Shown here piece after piece: positions 15,359 to 25,182 of a DNA stretch of 64,000 nucleotides (its first letter is position 1; every line of letters starts with the position of its first letter). The stretch covers positions 248,001 through 312,000 of the forward strand of contig NZ_BBXE01000017.1 of NCBI RefSeq assembly GCF_001570565.1, given 5' to 3'. Under the pieces are notes generated by a model. The model was not told where the DNA came from, did not search any database, and worked only from the letters and a program-made list of their open reading frames with translations. The position numbers and the translations under genes were made by a program. Source of the DNA: Herbidospora yilanensis. GTDB taxonomy: Bacteria; Actinomycetota; Actinomycetes; Streptosporangiales; Streptosporangiaceae.

Positions 15359-15550
15359 CGCCTTGTCGCCGCCTTGTCTCCGCCTCGTCGCGTGCCGACG
15401 GAACGGTGCACGAGTCTTGGCAGCGGTGACCGGGTCGCGCATCGGTGAAATCACCAGTCCTTCCCTGCGCGCCGCAGGTGACGAAAGGTGTCGCGACTTT
15501 TCCGGCATATCCCTCTTTCAGGGAAGTCAGGTGGCCGTAACACTGAGGAG

Positions 15551-18283
15551 ATGCCGGCAGCCCATCACGTCACACCCGCCCCCCTGAGGGGCCGTGCGGC
15601 CGAACTGGCCGCGTTGCGGGAGGCGCAGGCCGGCGCGCGGGCCGGGTCGGGCGGCGCCCTCCTTCTCGTCGGCGCGGCGGGAACGGGCAAGTCGGCGCTG
15701 CTCGACCTCGCCGCCGCCGAGGCCGGCGACCTGCTGGTGCTCCGCGCGCGGGGGGTGGCGTGCGAACGCGACCTGCCCTACGCCGGGCTGCACGGCCTGC
15801 TGCGCCCGCTGCGCGACCGGCTGGCGGCGCTGCCGAAGGCGCAGGGCGAGGCGCTGACCGAGGCCCTCGACCTGGGCACGCCGACGGGCCGCCTGGTCGT
15901 CCCGGCCGCCGTGCTCACGCTGCTGTCGCTGGCGGCGGCCGACCGTCCGGTCGTCGCGGTCGTGGACGACCTGCACCAGCTCGACGCGCCCAGCCGCGAG
16001 GCCCTGCTGTTCACCGCCCGGCGCCTGGCCGGTGAACCCGTGGCCCTGGTGGCCGCCGCGCGCTCCGACGTCTGGGCGGGCGCGGTGCCGGTCCGGCAGC
16101 TCGACGACCTCGACGAACGGGCCGCCAGGGAGCTGACCGACGACCTGGTGCCCGGCGGGCTGCCCGACGACCTTCGGGCCGCGCTCGACCAGATCGCCCG
16201 GGGCAACCCGCTGGCGCTCACCGAGCTCGCCGCCGCCCTCACGCCCGGACAGCTCGCCGGGACGGCCGCCCCTCCGGCGGCCCTGCCGCGCGAGGGGCGG
16301 TTGTGGCGGGCGTACACCGACCAGATCGACGACCTGCCCGCCCCGACGCGGGACCTGCTGCTCCTGCTGGCCGCCGATCCGCGCCTCGACACGGCCACGC
16401 TGGTGCGGGCGTTCGACGGCGACCCGTTCACCGCGCTGGAGGCGGCCGAGGAGGCCGGGATCGTCGAGGTCGCGGGCGACCGGTTCCGGTTCCGCGACCC
16501 GGCGGCCGGGCCGGTGGTCTACCACGGCGCGTCGCTGCTGGCCCGCCGGGGCGCCCACCGGGCACTCGCCGGAGCGCTGGCCCATCACCGGCTCCGGCGG
16601 GCCTGGCACCGGGCCGCCGCCCTCGACGGGCCGCCCGAGGACCTGGCCGACGAGCTGGAGGCCGCCGCCACCGCGACCGGTTCGCCCTGCCCGTTCCCGG
16701 AGTTGTCGCTGGCCTACGAGCGGGCCGCCGAGCTGAGCACCCGCGGCGACGTCAAGGCGACCCGGCTGGCCGCCGCCGCCCAGTACGCCCGCCTCGAAGG
16801 CCGCCCCCACCGCGCGCACGCCCTGCTCGACCGGCTGCGCAGCGGCGCGGTCTCGGCCGAACTGCGGCAGCAGGCCGAGAGCATCCGGGCCCGGCTGGAG
16901 TTACGCGGCGGCGAGACCAGCTTCGCCCGCGACGAACTCCTCGCGGTCGCCTCGTCGCTGCTCGACCGCGACCGCACGATGGCGGTCAGGGCGCTGGTGC
17001 GGGCCGCCGAGGCCAGTTACCTGGCGGGCGACCACCACCGGTTCGTCGTCATCGCCCGCGACGCCCTGACGCTGCGGCGCGACGACGACCCGCCCGCGAT
17101 CCGGCTGATGTTCGAGTACCTGACCGGCATGGCCGCCTCGTTCCGCGGCCGCCACGACGAGGCGGCCGGCCCGCTGCGCCGGGTCGTCGAGCTGGCGCCC
17201 CACGTGCACAGCCCGTCGGTGCTGGTCTGGGCGGCCGTGTCGAGCCTGATGCTGGGCGACGACGCGCAGGCGTTCCGGCTCTCCACCCGCGCGGTCGAGA
17301 CGGCCCGCGCGCTGGGCGCGGTGGCGACCGTGCCGCAGGTGCTGGAGTTCGCGATCAACAGCGAGTTCTGGCTCGGCCGGTTCGCCTCGGCCGCCGCCAA
17401 CGCCTCGGAGGGCCTGCGGCTGGCGCGGGAGACCGGCCAGCGCGGCAGCGCCGGGCAGCACCTGGGCTGGTTGTCGATGATGGCCGCCGTCCAGGGCGAC
17501 GAGGAGACCGTCCAGACGCGGGCCCGCGCCGCGATCGAACTGGCCGGCGCCCACGGCGTGAGCATCGCCGGGGCCCTGGGCAACTGGGCGCTGGCCCAGA
17601 TCGACCTGGCCTCGGGCCGCCCGGCGGCGGCGGTGCAGCGGTTGCGGCCGACCACGCGGGCCGACGTGCGCAACACCCATCTGGTCGTCCAGGTGACCGC
17701 GACCCCGCACTTCGTCGAGGCCGCCGCGCGGACCGGCGAGCGCGACCAGGCGGCCCGCGCCCTGCGCGTCTTCCAACGCTGGGCCGACAGCACGGCCAGC
17801 CCCGACCGGCGGGCGCTCGCCGTGCGCTGCCGCGCCCTGCTCGCCCCGCCGGGCGAGGCCGACGAACTGTTCCGCGCCGCGCTCGACCTGCATCACCAGG
17901 GCTTCTCCGAGTTCGAGACGGCCAGGACCGAGTTGCTGTACGGCTCCGCCCTGCGCCGCGACCGCCGTCCGGGCGCGGCGCGGGAGCACCTGTACAGCGC
18001 CCTCGACACGTTCGAGCGCTACGGGGCCCGGCTGTGGGTCGACCAGGCGCGGAGCGAACTGCGCGCGGCCGGCGAGCCGGTGCGGACGACCCGGCCGAAG
18101 GCGGCCGAGGAGCTGACCGCCCAGCAGTTCCAGATCGCCCGCATGGTCGCCGACGGCGCGACGAACAGGGAGGTCGCCGCCCAGCTCTACCTGAGCCCCC
18201 GGACGGTCGAGCACCACCTGCGCAACATCTTCGCCAAGCTCGACATCAGGTCCCGGGTCGACCTGGTGCGGTTGCTGACCTGA
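15551..18283 (+). CDS. LAL-type LuxR-family transcriptional regulator with N-terminal AAA ATPase
   Basis: A 910-aa regulator from ATG 15551, with GAGGAG immediately upstream. Residues about 10-60 start with LRGRAAELAAL and Walker A LLVGAAGTGKSALL; Walker B is RPVVAVVDDLHQLD. A long TPR-like helical middle follows, and the last 65 residues are a LuxR helix-turn-helix (LTAQQFQIARMVADGATNRE, then AAQLYLSPRTVEHHLRNIF). LAL (MalT-like) regulators usually activate secondary-metabolite or transport operons. It is divergent from the liv scar and might once have governed that lost cluster; this is inference. Its present target is unknown. Confidence 0.9.
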   Translation: MPAAHHVTPAPLRGRAAELAALREAQAGARAGSGGALLLVGAAGTGKSALLDLAAAEAGDLLVLRARGVACERDLPYAGLHGLLRPLRDRLAALPKAQGEALTEALDLGTPTGRLVVPAAVLTLLSLAAADRPVVAVVDDLHQLDAPSREALLFTARRLAGEPVALVAAARSDVWAGAVPVRQLDDLDERAARELTDDLVPGGLPDDLRAALDQIARGNPLALTELAAALTPGQLAGTAAPPAALPREGRLWRAYTDQIDDLPAPTRDLLLLLAADPRLDTATLVRAFDGDPFTALEAAEEAGIVEVAGDRFRFRDPAAGPVVYHGASLLARRGAHRALAGALAHHRLRRAWHRAAALDGPPEDLADELEAAATATGSPCPFPELSLAYERAAELSTRGDVKATRLAAAAQYARLEGRPHRAHALLDRLRSGAVSAELRQQAESIRARLELRGGETSFARDELLAVASSLLDRDRTMAVRALVRAAEASYLAGDHHRFVVIARDALTLRRDDDPPAIRLMFEYLTGMAASFRGRHDEAAGPLRRVVELAPHVHSPSVLVWAAVSSLMLGDDAQAFRLSTRAVETARALGAVATVPQVLEFAINSEFWLGRFASAAANASEGLRLARETGQRGSAGQHLGWLSMMAAVQGDEETVQTRARAAIELAGAHGVSIAGALGNWALAQIDLASGRPAAAVQRLRPTTRADVRNTHLVVQVTATPHFVEAAARTGERDQAARALRVFQRWADSTASPDRRALAVRCRALLAPPGEADELFRAALDLHHQGFSEFETARTELLYGSALRRDRRPGAAREHLYSALDTFERYGARLWVDQARSELRAAGEPVRTTRPKAAEELTAQQFQIARMVADGATNREVAAQLYLSPRTVEHHLRNIFAKLDIRSRVDLVRLLT

Positions 18284-20464: not shown

Positions 20465-21064
20465 TCAGGTGAGGGCGAGCGCCTCGGCCCGGCGGACGGT
20501 GGTCCGCGGCGAGGGTTCGGCCTGGATGCCGAACAGCACGACGCGCCACATCTCGCGCAACCGCTCCTCGGTGTCGGCCCGGCCGAGCGTGTCGCTGACC
20601 TGGAAGACCCCGAAGAACGAGCTGACGACCACCCGCGCCGCCTTCTCTGCGGTGACGCCCTCGGCGAGCTCGCCGGCCCGCTCGGCCGGCTGGAGCACCT
20701 GCGTGAACGCGGCCTCCCAGGCGCCCACGTTGCGGTCGAGGGCCAGCCGCGCCCCCGCGCGCATGACCGGTTCGTCGCGGAAGGCCCGGGTGATGGCGAA
20801 GGTCAGCGCGACGACCACCACGACGGGGTCGGACTCCTCGCCGCAGAACCGTTTCACGAGGGCGGGCCAGCGTTCGAGCTGGCGCTCGACGATCGCCTCG
20901 GCCACCGACTCCTTGTTCGGGTAGTGGAAGTAGATCGCGCCCTTGGTCACCCCGGCCCGCTCGTGGATCTCGGTCAGGCTGGTCCCGGCGTACCCGTTGG
21001 CCGCGAAGATCTCGGCGGCCGCGCGGAGCAGCCGTTCACGGGTCGCCAGTGCACGCTGCTGCAC
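20465..21064 (-). CDS. TetR/AcrR-family regulator (gamma-butyrolactone-receptor-like)
   Basis: A 199-aa regulator from ATG 21064. The N-terminal HTH is RERLLRAAAEIFAANGYAGT then SLTEIHERAGVTKGAIYFHY, matching ScbR/ArpA-type receptors, which carry AAEVFDERGY and TKGALYFHF at these places. The C-terminal ligand domain (residues about 80-190) is Ala/Val rich. It is divergent from the encapsulin locus across 266 nt, so control of that locus is plausible. Ligand identity is not visible; an ordinary TetR is the alternative. Confidence 0.82.
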   Translation of the reverse strand: MQQRALATRERLLRAAAEIFAANGYAGTSLTEIHERAGVTKGAIYFHYPNKESVAEAIVERQLERWPALVKRFCGEESDPVVVVVALTFAITRAFRDEPVMRAGARLALDRNVGAWEAAFTQVLQPAERAGELAEGVTAEKAARVVVSSFFGVFQVSDTLGRADTEERLREMWRVVLFGIQAEPSPRTTVRRAEALALT

Positions 21065-21218: not shown

Positions 21219-21248
21219 TTGACACTCCGAAGATCGCCCCTGCATTAT
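21219..21248 (+). promoter_or_regulatory. Candidate sigma-70-type promoter for the encapsulin locus
   Basis: TTGACA (21219-21224), an 18-bp spacer and CATTAT (21243-21248) give a perfect -35 and a 4/6 match -10. It lies 82 nt upstream of the first shell gene in an AT-rich stretch between the TetR gene and the shell gene. Spacing is 1 bp longer than ideal. Confidence 0.5.
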
Positions 21249-21330: not shown

Positions 21331-22707
21331 TTGACCGTTGAGAACGAGCAATTGAGCCTGGGCACGGCGGCGGCCAGAAAACTGGCCACCACCACCAAAA
21401 CCGTCCCCCAGATGCAGGGCATCAGCAGCAGGTGGCTGCTGAAGGTCCTGCCCTGGGTCCAGGTCTCCGGCGGCGCCTACCGCGTCAACCGCCGCCTGTC
21501 CTACGCCGTCGGCGACGGCCGGGTCACCTTCACCGTCCAGTCGGGCCAGGTCCGGGTCATCCCCGCCGAGCTCACCGAACTCCCCCTGCTGCGCGGTTTC
21601 GACGACCCCGACACGCTGACCGCCCTGTCCGAGCGCTTCACCCAGCGCGACTTCTCCTCGGGCGACGTCATCGTGGAGGCCGGCCAGCCCGCCGACCAGG
21701 TGATCCTGGTGGCCCACGGCAAGCTGACCAAGATCGGCACCGGCCCCTACGGCGACCAGGTCGCCCTCGGCCTGCTCGCCGACGGCGACCACGTCGGCGA
21801 CCAGACCCTGCTGACCCCCGGCACCTGGGACTACACGGTCAGGGCCACCACGGCGGGCACCGTGCTGACCCTCCCCCGCAGTGAGTTCGAGCGGCTCGTC
21901 GACCAGTCCGACGCGCTCCGCGCCCACGTCGAGTCCTACCAGGCCGGCTCGGGCCGCCCGCAGGACGAATACGGCGAGGCCGCCATCGAGGTCTCCTCCG
22001 GCCACCACGGCGAGCCCTCGCTGCCCGGCACGTTCGTCGACTACGAGACCTCCCCGCGCGAATACGAGCTGAGCGTCGCCCAGACCGTCCTTCGGGTGCA
22101 CTCGCGCGTCGCCGACCTCTACAACGACCCGATGGACCAGATCGAGCAGCAGCTCCGGCTGACCATCGAGGCGCTGCGCGAACGCCAGGAACACGAGATC
22201 GTCAACAACCGCGAGTTCGGCCTGCTCGCCAACGCCGACCTCAAGCAGCGCACCCACACCCGGTCGGGCCCGCCGACCCCCGACGACGTCGACGAGCTGC
22301 TGTCGCTGGTGTGGCGGGAGCCGTCGTACATCCTGGCCCACCCGCTGGCCATCGCGGCCTTCGGGCGGGAGTGCAGCGCCCGCGGGGTCTACCCGACCAG
22401 CGTCGACGTCGGGGGCCACCACTTCCCGTCGTGGCGCGGGGTGCCGATCCTGCCCTGCAACAAGATCCCGGTGACCGACACCCGCACCTCCTCGATGATC
22501 GTGATGCGGCTCGGCGAGGAGAAGCAGGGGGTGGTCGGCCTCCACCAGGTCGGCATCCCCGACGAATACCAGCCGAGCCTGTCGGTGCGCTTCATGGGCA
22601 TCGACGAGAAGGCCATCATCAAATATCTGGTGAGCGCCTACTATTCGGCCGCGATCCTCGTCCCCGACGCCCTCGGAATTCTGGAGAACGTCGAAGTCGG
22701 TCATTGA
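21331..22707 (+). CDS. Family 2B encapsulin shell protein 1 (with inserted cNMP-binding-like domain)
   Basis: A 458-aa shell protein from TTG 21331, with AGGAG five bases upstream. The N-arm and first HK97-fold segment (residues 8-85, e.g. [20 protein letters not shown]) precede an inserted cyclic-nucleotide-binding-like domain (about 86-205, including [17 protein letters not shown]). The rest is the HK97-type shell ([50 protein letters not shown]). Family 2B encapsulins self-assemble into protein nanocompartments. The phosphate-binding Arg expected in a cAMP-binding cassette is not evident, so nucleotide binding is uncertain. A perfect intrinsic terminator follows the stop, ahead of a second shell gene. 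Confidence 0.88.
21354..21610 (+). repeat. Near-identical 257-nt tract, copy 1 (paired with 22798-23054)
   Basis: This tract encodes shell 1 residues 8-93. By eye it differs from the matching tract in shell 2 at only about four bases, including third-codon positions, and is colinear with it at an offset of 1444. Flanking parts of the genes diverge much more. Recent gene conversion fits. Confidence 0.75.
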
Positions 22708-22722
22708 CGAATGGTTCCCCCA

Positions 22723-22759
22723 GGGCGGCCCGTGCGGAAATTCTCGGGCCGCCCTTTTT
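22723..22759 (+). terminator. Rho-independent terminator between the two shell genes
   Basis: Perfect 10-bp stem GGGCGGCCCG / CGGGCCGCCC with a 12-nt loop, followed directly by TTTTT. It lies 16 nt after shell gene 1 and 25 nt before shell gene 2. It would separate or attenuate expression of the downstream shell and cargo genes. Confidence 0.85.
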
Positions 22760-22783
22760 AATTCCCACCAGTAAGGGAGTGCC

Positions 22784-24151
22784 GTGAACGATCAACTGAG
22801 CCTGGGCACGGCGGCGGCCAGGAAACTGGCGACCACCACCAAAACCGTCCCCCAGATGCAGGGCATCAGCAGCAGGTGGCTGCTGAAGGTCCTGCCCTGG
22901 GTCCAGGTCTCCGGCGGCGCCTACCGCGTCAACCGCCGCCTGTCCTACGCCGTCGGCGACGGCCGGGTCACCTTCACCGTCCAGTCGGGCCAGGTCCGGG
23001 TCATCCCCGCCGAGCTCACCGAACTCCCCCTCCTGCGCGGTTTCGACGACCCCGAGGCCCTGGAGGCCCTCGCGGGCCGGTTCTCCCAGCGCGACTTCGC
23101 CGCCGGCGACGTCATCGCCGGGGAGGGCGACCAGGCCGACGAGGTCATCCTGGTCGCGCACGGCAAGCTCACCAAGGTCGGCACCGGCGCCTACGGGGGC
23201 GAGACCGCGCTCGGCCTCCTCGGCGACGGCGACCACGTCGGCGACCACGCCCTGCTCGCCCCCGGCACGTGGGACTTCACCGTGAAGGCCACGACGGCGG
23301 GCACGGTGCTGACGCTGGGCCGGCGCGCGTTCGAGGAGCTGGCCGACCGGTTCGAGACGCTGCGGGCCCACGTGGAGGCCTACCGGAGCAGTCCCGAAAG
23401 GCCGCAGGACCGGCACGGGCAGGCGGAGATCGCGCTCGCGGCCGGGCACCACGGCGAGGCGGCGCTGCCCGGCACGTTCGTCGACTACGAGACCTCGCCC
23501 CGGGAATACGAGCTGAGCGTGGCGCAGACCGTGTTGCGGGTGCACTCGCGGGTCGCCGACCTCTACAACGACCCGATGGACCAGGTCGAGCAGCAGCTCC
23601 GGCTGACCATCGAGGCGCTGCGCGAACGCCAGGAACACGAGATCGTCAACAACCGCGAGTTCGGCCTGCTCGCCAACGCCGACCTGAAGCAGCGGCTCCA
23701 GTCGCGGTCGGGCCCGCCGACCCCCGACGACATGGACGATCTGCTCTGCCGCCGCCGCAAGACGCAGTACTTCGTGGCCCACCCCCAGGCCATCGCCGCG
23801 TTCGGCCGCGAGTGCACCAAGAGGGGCGTCTACCCGACCAACGTGGAGGTCGAGGGGGTGCGCCTGACGGCCTGGCGGGGGGTGCCGATCCTGCCGTGCA
23901 ACAAGCTGCCCATCAGCGAGACCCGCACCACCTCGATCATGGCGATGCGGCTCGGCGAGGAGAACCAGGGCGTGGTGGGCCTGCACCAGACCGGCATCCC
24001 GGACGAATACCAGCCCGGCCTGAACGTGCGGTTCATGGGCGTCGACGACCGAGCGGTGATCAACTATCTGGTCAGCGCCTACTACTCGGCCGCGATCCTG
24101 ATCCCGGACGCGCTCGGCGTCCTGGAGAACGTGGAACTCGGCCATCGATGA
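22784..24151 (+). CDS. Family 2B encapsulin shell protein 2
   Basis: A 455-aa paralogue of the preceding shell protein from GTG 22784, with AAGGGAG five bases upstream. Domain order is the same: N-arm, inserted cNMP-binding-like domain, and HK97 shell. The N-terminal 86 residues are almost identical to shell 1; the inserted domain ([18 protein letters not shown]) and the A-domain tip ([18 protein letters not shown] vs [18 protein letters not shown]) have diverged. The two proteins could co-assemble into a mixed shell, with divergence at pores or exposed faces. The stop overlaps the polyprenyl synthase start by 4 nt, so shell 2, not shell 1, is translationally coupled to the cargo. Confidence 0.88.
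22798..23054 (+). repeat. Near-identical 257-nt tract, copy 2
   Basis: Counterpart of the tract at 21354-21610 in shell gene 2. A second strongly conserved block at the same offset of 1444 covers the region from about 23555 to 23690 (22111-22246 in shell 1). Confidence 0.75.
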
Positions 24152-25182
24152 CGACGACCGAGACGGGGGCTCGCGACGTCGCGGAGGTGCTCTCCTGGAG
24201 CCGCGACCTGGTGCAGCCGGCGATCCGGGAGGCGGCCGAGACCCTGCCGGCCTCGATGCGGCACATCTCCGGCTATCACATGGGCTGGTGGGACGAGCGG
24301 GGCCGCCCGATCACCACCGGCGCCGGCAAGTCGGTGCGTCCGGCGCTGGCGCTGCTGGCCGCCGAGGCGGTGGGCGGATCGGCCGAGGGGGCGCTGCCGG
24401 CCGCGGTGGCGGTCGAGCTCGTCCACGATTTCTCGCTGCTGCACGACGACGTGATGGACGGCGACGCCACCCGGCGTCACCGCCCCACGGCGTGGCGGGT
24501 GTTCGGGGTGAGCCAGGCGATCCTGGCCGGTGACGCGCTGGTGTCGCTGGCGTTCGCCCGGCTGGCCGAGAGCGGCCATCCGCTGGCCCACGAGGGGGCG
24601 CGGCTGCTGAACGCGACGGTCCTCGACCTGCTCGACGGGCAGAGCGCCGACGTCGGGTTCGAAGACCGGGCCGACGTGACGCTGCCCGAGTGCATCCGGA
24701 TGGCCGGGTCGAAGACCGGCGCGCTCATCGCGTGCGCGTGCGCGCTCGGCGCCCTCTACGGGGGAGCCGACGCGCGGGTGATCGAGCGCCTGCGGACCTT
24801 CGGCGCCGAGCTCGGGCTGGCCTTCCAGCTCGCCGACGACCTGCTCGGCATCTGGGGCGATCCGGAGGTGACCGGCAAGCCGGTCTTCTCCGACCTCGCC
24901 AACCGCAAGAAGTCGCTGCCGGTGGTGGCCGCGCTCACCTCCGCGACCGGGGAGGCCGCGGAGCTGGCCGAGATCTACCGGTCGGGCGCCGTCCTGTCGG
25001 ACGCCGAGCTGGCCAGGGCCGCCGACCTGGTGGAGCGGGCCGGGGGCCGCGACTGGTGCCGCGAGACCGCCGACGGCCTGCTCGCGCGGGCCCCCGCCCA
25101 CCTGGCGGAGGCGGGCTGCGCGGCCCGCCCGGCGGCCGAGCTGACGGCGCTGTCCACGCTGATGGCCCGGCGCACCCTCTGA
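24148..25182 (+). CDS. Polyprenyl diphosphate synthase, likely encapsulin cargo
   Basis: A 344-aa trans-isoprenyl diphosphate synthase. The first Asp-rich motif is DDVMD (residues 100-104) followed by [10 protein letters not shown]; the second is DDLLGIWGD (230-238). [10 protein letters not shown] carries the substrate-binding Lys/Arg. Phe at five residues before DDVMD suggests a short product (about C15-C20), an inference from chain-length rules. Only about eight disordered residues precede the fold, so a long targeting tail as seen in some family 2 cargos is absent here. ATGA overlap with shell gene 2 places it in the encapsulin operon. No terpene cyclase lies next door, so the end product is unknown. 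Confidence 0.88.

Follow-up and report, generated by a model that had tools for sequence, protein, structure and literature searches.

Two-shell encapsulin operons have been described in two published sources. A 2021 survey reported about 900 Family 2B operons of the prenyltransferase (PT) type, 888 of them in Actinobacteria, with genomic data as the support for the PT as cargo (PMC8346489). In that survey the PT cargo is described with a disordered N-terminus of 50–100 residues, and its consulted passages leave undecided whether two shell proteins form one mixed shell or two separate shells. A count of two-shell operons gave 503, with PTs among five cargo types (PMC12407261). In the system from Streptomyces lydicus described in the same source, Enc1 and Enc2 co-assemble into mixed shells; Enc2 is able to assemble alone, and Enc1 alone forms no shells (PMC12407261). 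The S. lydicus structures place diagnostic motif 1 at the protomer interface, by the N-arm, with motif 2 facing the lumen; the discussion allows all protomer pairings and offers the roles of the two motifs as suggestions (PMC12407261). Here we analyze a locus in a 64,000-nt stretch of the Herbidospora yilanensis genome (contig NZ_BBXE01000017.1, positions 248,001–312,000; hereafter the window, to whose numbering coordinates refer unless a contig or another locus is named). It holds, in a row on the + strand, the genes for two encapsulin shell proteins, Enc1 and Enc2, and a trans-prenyl diphosphate synthase. Loci of this type are known from print, and the Herbidospora locus adds another example. 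What the present analysis contributes is recurrent gene conversion between Enc1 and Enc2, with a gap bounded by the two diagnostic motifs, and a hairpin between the Herbidospora shell genes. The conversion pattern bears on the reason for having two shell proteins in some encapsulins, and the paired genes are informative on what makes a two-component shell two-component.

A two-shell locus followed by a prenyl diphosphate synthase

Enc1 (21331..22707, +, 458 aa, TTG start) and Enc2 (22784..24151, +, 455 aa, GTG start) are Family 2B encapsulin shell proteins. Each scored 774 bits on NF041163, 'family 2B encapsulin shell protein' (cut-off 400), over nearly the full length of the model. The HK97 fold was evident from PF19307 (SrpI-like) matches of 458 and 466 bits in the two shells. 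Ahead of the main SrpI-like match, PF00027 (cNMP_binding) matched residues 106–192 and 103–189, so that by domain matches both shells carry the cNMP-binding-like domain (CBD) of Family 2B, its insertion point in the E-loop being taken from the family definition. Alignment placed diagnostic motif 1 of Enc1, SLVWREPS, at residues 325–332 (22303..22326, +) and motif 2 at residues 357–366 (22399..22428, +). In Enc2, motif 1 reads CRRRKTQ (23747..23767, +) and motif 2 lies at 23840..23869 (+). With two shell genes less than 10 kb apart, SLVWR in the upstream copy and CRRRK in the downstream copy, the pair belongs to the two-component type of Family 2B.

The third gene (24148..25182, +, 344 aa, ATG start) encodes the trans-prenyl diphosphate synthase, a putative client enzyme. 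It scored 473 bits on NF041169, 'family 2 encapsulin cargo, polyprenyl transferase' (cut-off 450), and 203 bits on PF00348 (polyprenyl_synt), and it is 97% identical to the synthases of H. solisilvae and H. galbida. Its ATG overlaps the stop codon of Enc2 (ATGA), an arrangement seen in 7/7 Herbidospora loci. These coordinates and the NCBIfam and Pfam matches bear out an earlier note, made from the letters of the window, that two different encapsulin genes lie by a trans-isoprenyl diphosphate synthase. The same note saw no terpene cyclase nearby, which holds for PF19086, with eight matches in the genome and none in the window (other cyclase families were not searched). The nearest PF19086 matches on the same contig lie beyond the window, ∼61 kb downstream of the operon, where two neighboring terpene synthase domain matches share a single open frame (G000:C17:334277-335944).

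Compared with Sl-Enc1/Sl-Enc2 of S. lydicus, the Herbidospora pair is alike in gene order, diagnostic motif types and domain make-up. Enc1 matched solved chain 9bje_A (E-value 5.6e-206) and Enc2 matched 9bix_A, its closest solved chain (E-value 2.2e-207); judging from the motifs of these chains, they are probably Sl-Enc1 and Sl-Enc2. S. lydicus has a system of the xylulose-kinase type, whereas in Herbidospora the prenyl diphosphate synthase comes after Enc2. Two further contrasts with the S. lydicus system are the 81 N-terminal residues over which the Herbidospora shells do not differ and the terminator-like hairpin that separates their genes. With PT-type Family 2B operons, as described in PMC8346489 and modeled in NF041169, the locus shares synthase family and linkage, but its synthase is without the published disordered N-terminus.

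Gene conversion between Enc1 and Enc2 spares the diagnostic motifs

Enc1 and Enc2 are 79% identical overall, and the identity is in blocks. Codons 8–88 of Enc1 (21352..21594, +) match a 5′ block of Enc2 (22796..23038, +) at 239/243 nt and 81/81 aa, and codons 241–300 (22051..22230, +) match at 170/180 nt and 59/60 aa. Elsewhere, the two genes agree at 356/456 nt over codons 89–240 and at 369/468 nt from codon 301 to the end. Across the seven Herbidospora loci we counted concerted sites, where the paralogues agree within a species and the species differ. Nine fell in codons 9–88 and four in codons 233–300, with one each in the CBD and A-domain and none in the C-terminus. Fixed paralogue differences numbered 0 in codons 9–88, 46 in the CBD, 0 in codons 233–300, 40 in the A-domain and 16 in the C-terminus. 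This Herbidospora pattern is one of concerted evolution.

A wider set of 76 unique tandem pairs was then compared, comprising 52 from the synthase set plus the window locus and 24 from a class-wide genome sample. The synthase set held 80 relatives kept out of 536 found, each with a neighborhood of up to 6 kb on either side. In the class-wide sample 115/394 genomes matched, with at most four candidates scored per genome, and the 24 pairs were de-duplicated and chosen by eye among the matches listed. Duplicates (L145, L150, L160) and loci without two near-full-length shells were left out, and L018 and L159, in which the second shell is CBD-less, stand outside the 76. A two-state decoder called conversion tracts in 32/76 pairs, representing 22/53 clades, as against 0/580 cross-clade control pairs. 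Tract positions vary between clades. The block of codons 8–88 falls, but for its very end, inside the tract called for the window pair (codons 1–85); over codons 241–300, L025 is the sole Herbidospora locus of the seven with a called tract, and the window pair has none there. Third-position mismatches gave a similar picture, dropping below 0.2 of the cross-clade expectation at the N-terminus in 9 loci, in the CBD in 2, in codons 233–300 in 20, in codons 305–400 in none and in codons 401–456 in 5.

The longest stretch free of tracts was codons 326–366 (41 codons), with motif 1 at one end and motif 2 at the other, as the motifs are given in the S. lydicus publication. These limits were read off the data, and the fair test therefore asks how often random rolling of the tracts leaves any gap of at least 41 codons; this happened in 1/20000 rolls. 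Five parameter settings returned the same 41-codon gap, with 0–1/300 controls positive. The interval first targeted, 311–375, proved too wide, since tracts from 14 clades reach into it. The two shells of L044 (Sphaerisporangium album) and those of L085 (Microtetraspora) are nearly identical up to about codon 320, including the CBD (361/363 nt each), and CBD divergence is therefore not required to keep a pair. The tract of L156, at codons 211–325, lies in a genome assembled as a single contig (G161), which makes an assembly artefact unlikely as a general cause.

DNA trees of separate segments (53 loci, one per clade) pointed to the same region. The number of Enc1/Enc2 label changes needed was 29 for the N-terminus, 25 for the CBD, 38 for codons 233–300, 13 for the C-terminus and 1 for codons 318–372. 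For codons 233–300, freely shuffled labels gave a mean of 35.5 changes (29–42) and labels swapped within loci gave 45.6 (41–49); the 38 needed is close to the first mean but below the range of the within-locus swaps, which indicates that a little paralogue signal is still present there. When the motif columns were removed, codons 318–372 needed 24 changes (36 codons), and codons 333–356 alone needed 27. The lasting Enc1/Enc2 difference is thus confined to the motif columns and does not extend over the full stretch between them, and this result weakened the first form of our claim, in which the entire 41-codon segment carried the signal.

Recurrent gene conversion amounts to a natural domain-swap experiment. 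The differences sometimes erased in this sample are those of the N-terminus, the core and, in two clades, nearly the whole CBD; those at motifs 1 and 2 never are. The conversion map narrows the question of partner identity to a short set of testable swaps. It also cautions against whole-protein trees of Enc1 and Enc2, in which different histories are mixed, and the locus provides, for engineering, a shell pair with near-identical N-terminal arms. Gene conversion in encapsulins was found neither in open-licence literature as consulted, where the two terms occur together in a single paper, on giant viruses, nor in the consulted text of PMC12407261.

Enc1-type shells and their partners

Motif 1 is VWK or VWR in 76/76 upstream copies and [RK]R[RK] in 76/76 downstream copies. 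A specificity scan ranked residues 326–332, 363 and 366, plus 213, as its top ten. Single-copy shells, taken from every genome listed with exactly one match at E <1e-180, were Enc2-type in 46/46 loci (RRR or MRR; 45 by pattern and L199 by eye). The 16 synthase loci with one near-full-length shell were all Enc2-type as well, among them five (L040, L059, L065, L070 and L093) at a contig edge or with a partial second shell. This comparison excluded three partial shells, those of L032, L047 and L083; that of L047 is Enc2-type and that of L083 Enc1-type.

Since all 46 single-copy shells are Enc2-type and Enc2 of S. lydicus assembles alone, Enc1 may exist only as a partner. The distribution suggests that Enc1 is an obligate partner marked by its diagnostic motifs and that Enc2 is self-sufficient. 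Three cautions apply. Copy loss by tandem recombination would be expected to leave behind a 3′ half of Enc2 type in any case, the truncated locus L083 has a partial Enc1-type shell as its sole shell match by the synthase, and in a second encapsulin locus of the same genome, described below, a VWK-type shell is paired with a CBD-less shell.

A terminator-like hairpin between Enc1 and Enc2

Between the Herbidospora shell genes lies a terminator-like hairpin (22722..22755, +), with an 11-bp G+C-rich stem and a 12-nt loop followed by a T run. It is present in 7/7 Herbidospora loci, where the stem is conserved (10 or 11 bp) and the loop variable. The 91-nt intergenic region folds with a z-score of −2.56, and 2/200 shuffles folded equally well. 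Our own, looser hairpin pattern matched 8/65 intergenic regions, seven of them from one genus, compared with 5/325 mononucleotide shuffles. A consensus terminator scan, which admits loops of 3–8 nt only, reported none at the Enc1–Enc2 gap. The stem ends 28 nt from the Enc2 start, which leaves little room for a promoter, and read-through is thus implied.

A probable mixed shell and its candidate client

We think it fairly probable, taking the parts together, that these genes encode a two-component shell with a client enzyme. Enc1 and Enc2 would most likely co-assemble into a single mixed T=1 shell, with Enc2 as the self-sufficient building block and Enc1 as the obligate partner. Selection would preserve the difference between them at two short A-domain motifs, and repeated gene conversion would homogenize much of the remaining gene, so that assembling surfaces stay compatible. 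The synthase, probably coupled translationally to Enc2 through the overlap, would be the likely client, making a short-chain trans-prenyl diphosphate, perhaps C20, for enzymes encoded elsewhere. A leaky terminator separating the shell genes in Herbidospora would probably yield more Enc1 than Enc2 transcript. The mixed shell, as proposed in the earlier note, is well supported by analogy: shells with these motif types co-assemble in S. lydicus, and parts of the HK97 core are near-identical via conversion.

A number of observations pull the other way. The CBD is seldom converted (2–5 clades), and the trees without motif columns place the paralogue signal in the motifs themselves rather than in the full segment that they bound. 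In L083, a partial Enc1-type shell is the only shell match by the synthase; the contig ends there, and a second shell is possible. Among the 80 synthase relatives, 10 have no shell match nearby, and 9 of these 10 have shells elsewhere in the genome. The Herbidospora synthase is without a disordered N-terminus of 50–100 residues, showing only ∼10 flexible residues and a first helix from residue 11 in an AlphaFold2 model. An LGTxAAR-type stretch was found in 0/75 synthases scanned, versus 11/38 terpene cyclases. Finally, outside Herbidospora the hairpin pattern matched 1/58 intergenic regions.

The synthase might not be cargo at all. It could be co-expressed with the shells and act outside them, for example in supplying prenyl diphosphate elsewhere, or dock on the exterior; we give this alternative an appreciable chance, though a smaller one than the two-component reading above. 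It fits the absence of a tag-like part from the N-terminus, the relatives with no shell within the fetched stretch, and the genomic nature of the published support for PT cargo (PMC8346489). It also fits a shorter synthase paralogue in the same genome (L022 3536-4450, on G000:C50), which has an N-terminus like that of the window synthase and lies on a contig without shell matches. Against it stands strong linkage. At least one shell match lies by the synthase in 70/80 kept relatives (two in 54, some of them partial and at contig ends, and one in 16), and the three-gene set is present in six named Herbidospora loci as well as in the window. The start–stop overlap in every Herbidospora locus and the score above cut-off on a dedicated NCBIfam cargo model argue likewise. 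So does open reading frame (ORF) clustering of the 80 relatives and the window locus, in which, judged by eye, shells and synthase form the sole same-strand clusters in most genera, with no further gene conserved by the pair. Many of the other ORF clusters are frame shadows of the shell and synthase genes; one, in 9 loci, resembles a terpene cyclase.

Packaging of the synthase, another proposal of the earlier note, is favored by linkage and family name and disfavored by the missing long disordered N-terminus; encapsulation is plausible as a hypothesis. If encapsulated, the synthase must load by a route other than a long N-terminal tag. Mean pLDDT (predicted local distance difference test) of the AlphaFold2 model was 93, with ∼70 for residues 1–10, 75 for residues 51–60 and 60 for the last few residues. 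A hidden N-terminal extension was considered and rejected: the synthase frame stays open across Enc2, yet among the six named Herbidospora relatives no start other than the overlapping ATG occurs within 40 codons upstream. In about ten other synthase relatives a stop codon precedes the match by no more than 15 codons. In several single-shell loci of the class-wide sample, the synthase match is preceded by long low-complexity sequence, as the literature describes.

A second route considered was tag mimicry. An LxTxAAR-like stretch resembling the terpene-cyclase motif given in PMC8346489 is present in the N-termini of 161/170 shells. In the window shells it reads SLGTAAAR (21355-21378 and 22799-22822) and resembles GPTGLGTSAAR of terpene cyclases. 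A cargo of that kind may mimic the shell arm and compete for its binding site. For the synthase studied here we set this route aside, given the 0/75 matches to the LGTxAAR-type pattern, a count for which no chance level was computed.

Residues around the first aspartate motif may point to a short-chain product. DDVMD at residues 100–104, F95 at −5 and S96 at −4 are invariant or nearly so in 33 sequences. This region resembles that of 1wy0_A, named as a geranylgeranyl diphosphate synthase (Y at −5, S at −4). The closest solved relative of the synthase, 3nf2_A (putative polyprenyl synthetase, 292 bits), is nearly alike around the first aspartate motif (HNFSLLHDDLMD in one of the pair). By chain-length rules, in which a first DDxxD free of insertions and an aromatic residue five positions ahead of its first aspartate mark the geranylgeranyl diphosphate type, the product would perhaps be about C20. 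The synthase fell under the IdsB cut-off (350 versus 475 bits). The genome has three other PF00348 genes: two with nonaprenyl-type and farnesyl/geranyl-type mycobacterial models as best matches, both under cut-off, and L022, which scored 303 bits on the cargo model (cut-off 450). L022 has DDLRS as its second aspartate motif and is possibly inactive or a partner subunit.

If selection at the motifs is part of the two-component reading, the gap in the conversion map might nonetheless have a mechanical origin. The mismatch block at motif 1, together with a one-codon indel, could halt strand exchange, with selection unnecessary. Motif 1 does differ across consecutive residues plus one codon, and 20/23 loci with a tract over codons 240–300 end it at codons 308–325, just ahead of motif 1. 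Yet divergence is higher in the CBD (median 63% nt identity between Enc1 and Enc2 of different genera, compared with 74% for codons 301–457), which has nevertheless become nearly identical in L044 and L085 between the two shells; there the CBD agrees at 361/363 nt. Tracts also occur beyond the gap, within codons 367–458, in five clades, and the motif types are kept in all 76 pairs. We judge a barrier of this kind rather unlikely, albeit a serious contender to selection.

Two separate homomeric shells, in place of one mixed shell, are compatible with the sequence, and the consulted passages of the 2021 survey leave the matter undecided (PMC8346489). But S. lydicus Enc1 fails alone and co-assembles with Enc2 (PMC12407261), Enc1-type shells occur in 0/46 single-copy loci, and the segments common to the two genes are homogenized; we regard separate shells as improbable. 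Least credible is the view that the high 5′ identity of these adjacent, 79% identical genes reflects recent duplication or strong codon constraint instead of conversion, since identity is in blocks (239/243 nt in codons 8–88 versus 356/456 nt in codons 89–240), nine species-specific states are common to both paralogues in codons 9–88, tract positions vary by clade and extend to single-contig L156, and many genera have the pair and both motif types, which makes the duplication old.

The two-component reading can be pushed further, into a version that we hold only tentatively and think more likely wrong than right. Here, two selection-protected A-domain motifs would encode partner identity, the luminal motif 2 of Enc1 would add a second docking surface for loading the tag-less synthase, and in Herbidospora the leaky terminator would set the Enc1:Enc2 ratio. 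Enc1 would then be the derived copy, the nucleotide-binding-like domains of the two shells may be alike, and the Enc1:Enc2 ratio would fix cargo load and pore state.

Flanking genes and a second encapsulin locus

Upstream of Enc1, a promoter-like TTGACA-18-CATTAT (21219..21248, +) lies inside a 60-column block that is identical in 7/7 Herbidospora loci. Divergent from the operon is a gene for an ScbR-type (gamma-butyrolactone receptor-like) TetR regulator (20465..21064, −; 181 bits on NF041196, cut-off 150). This gene, a second upstream gene (IclR) and a downstream gene of TauE type are found in all seven Herbidospora loci and in no other compared loci, except for one partial TauE match (L031). 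The ScbR-type gene is a possible regulator of the operon, and its type hints at autoregulator control. Farther upstream, the window encodes a large LuxR-type regulator that contains an AAA ATPase domain (15488-18283, +; PF13191, PF00196).

The same genome has a second encapsulin locus (L018 8847-13074, on G000:C30), in which a VWK-type 2B shell and a double-domain terpene cyclase accompany a 295-aa CBD-less shell. The CBD-less shell scored 343 bits on NF041163, under the cut-off of 400, and 278 bits on the SrpI-like model. A pairing of a 2B shell with a CBD-less shell is not among the operon types described in the published text consulted. In the terpene cyclase (L018 10271-12202), GLGTSAAR lies between the two domains. 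A comparable locus (L159) is present in another genome of the genus (G275).

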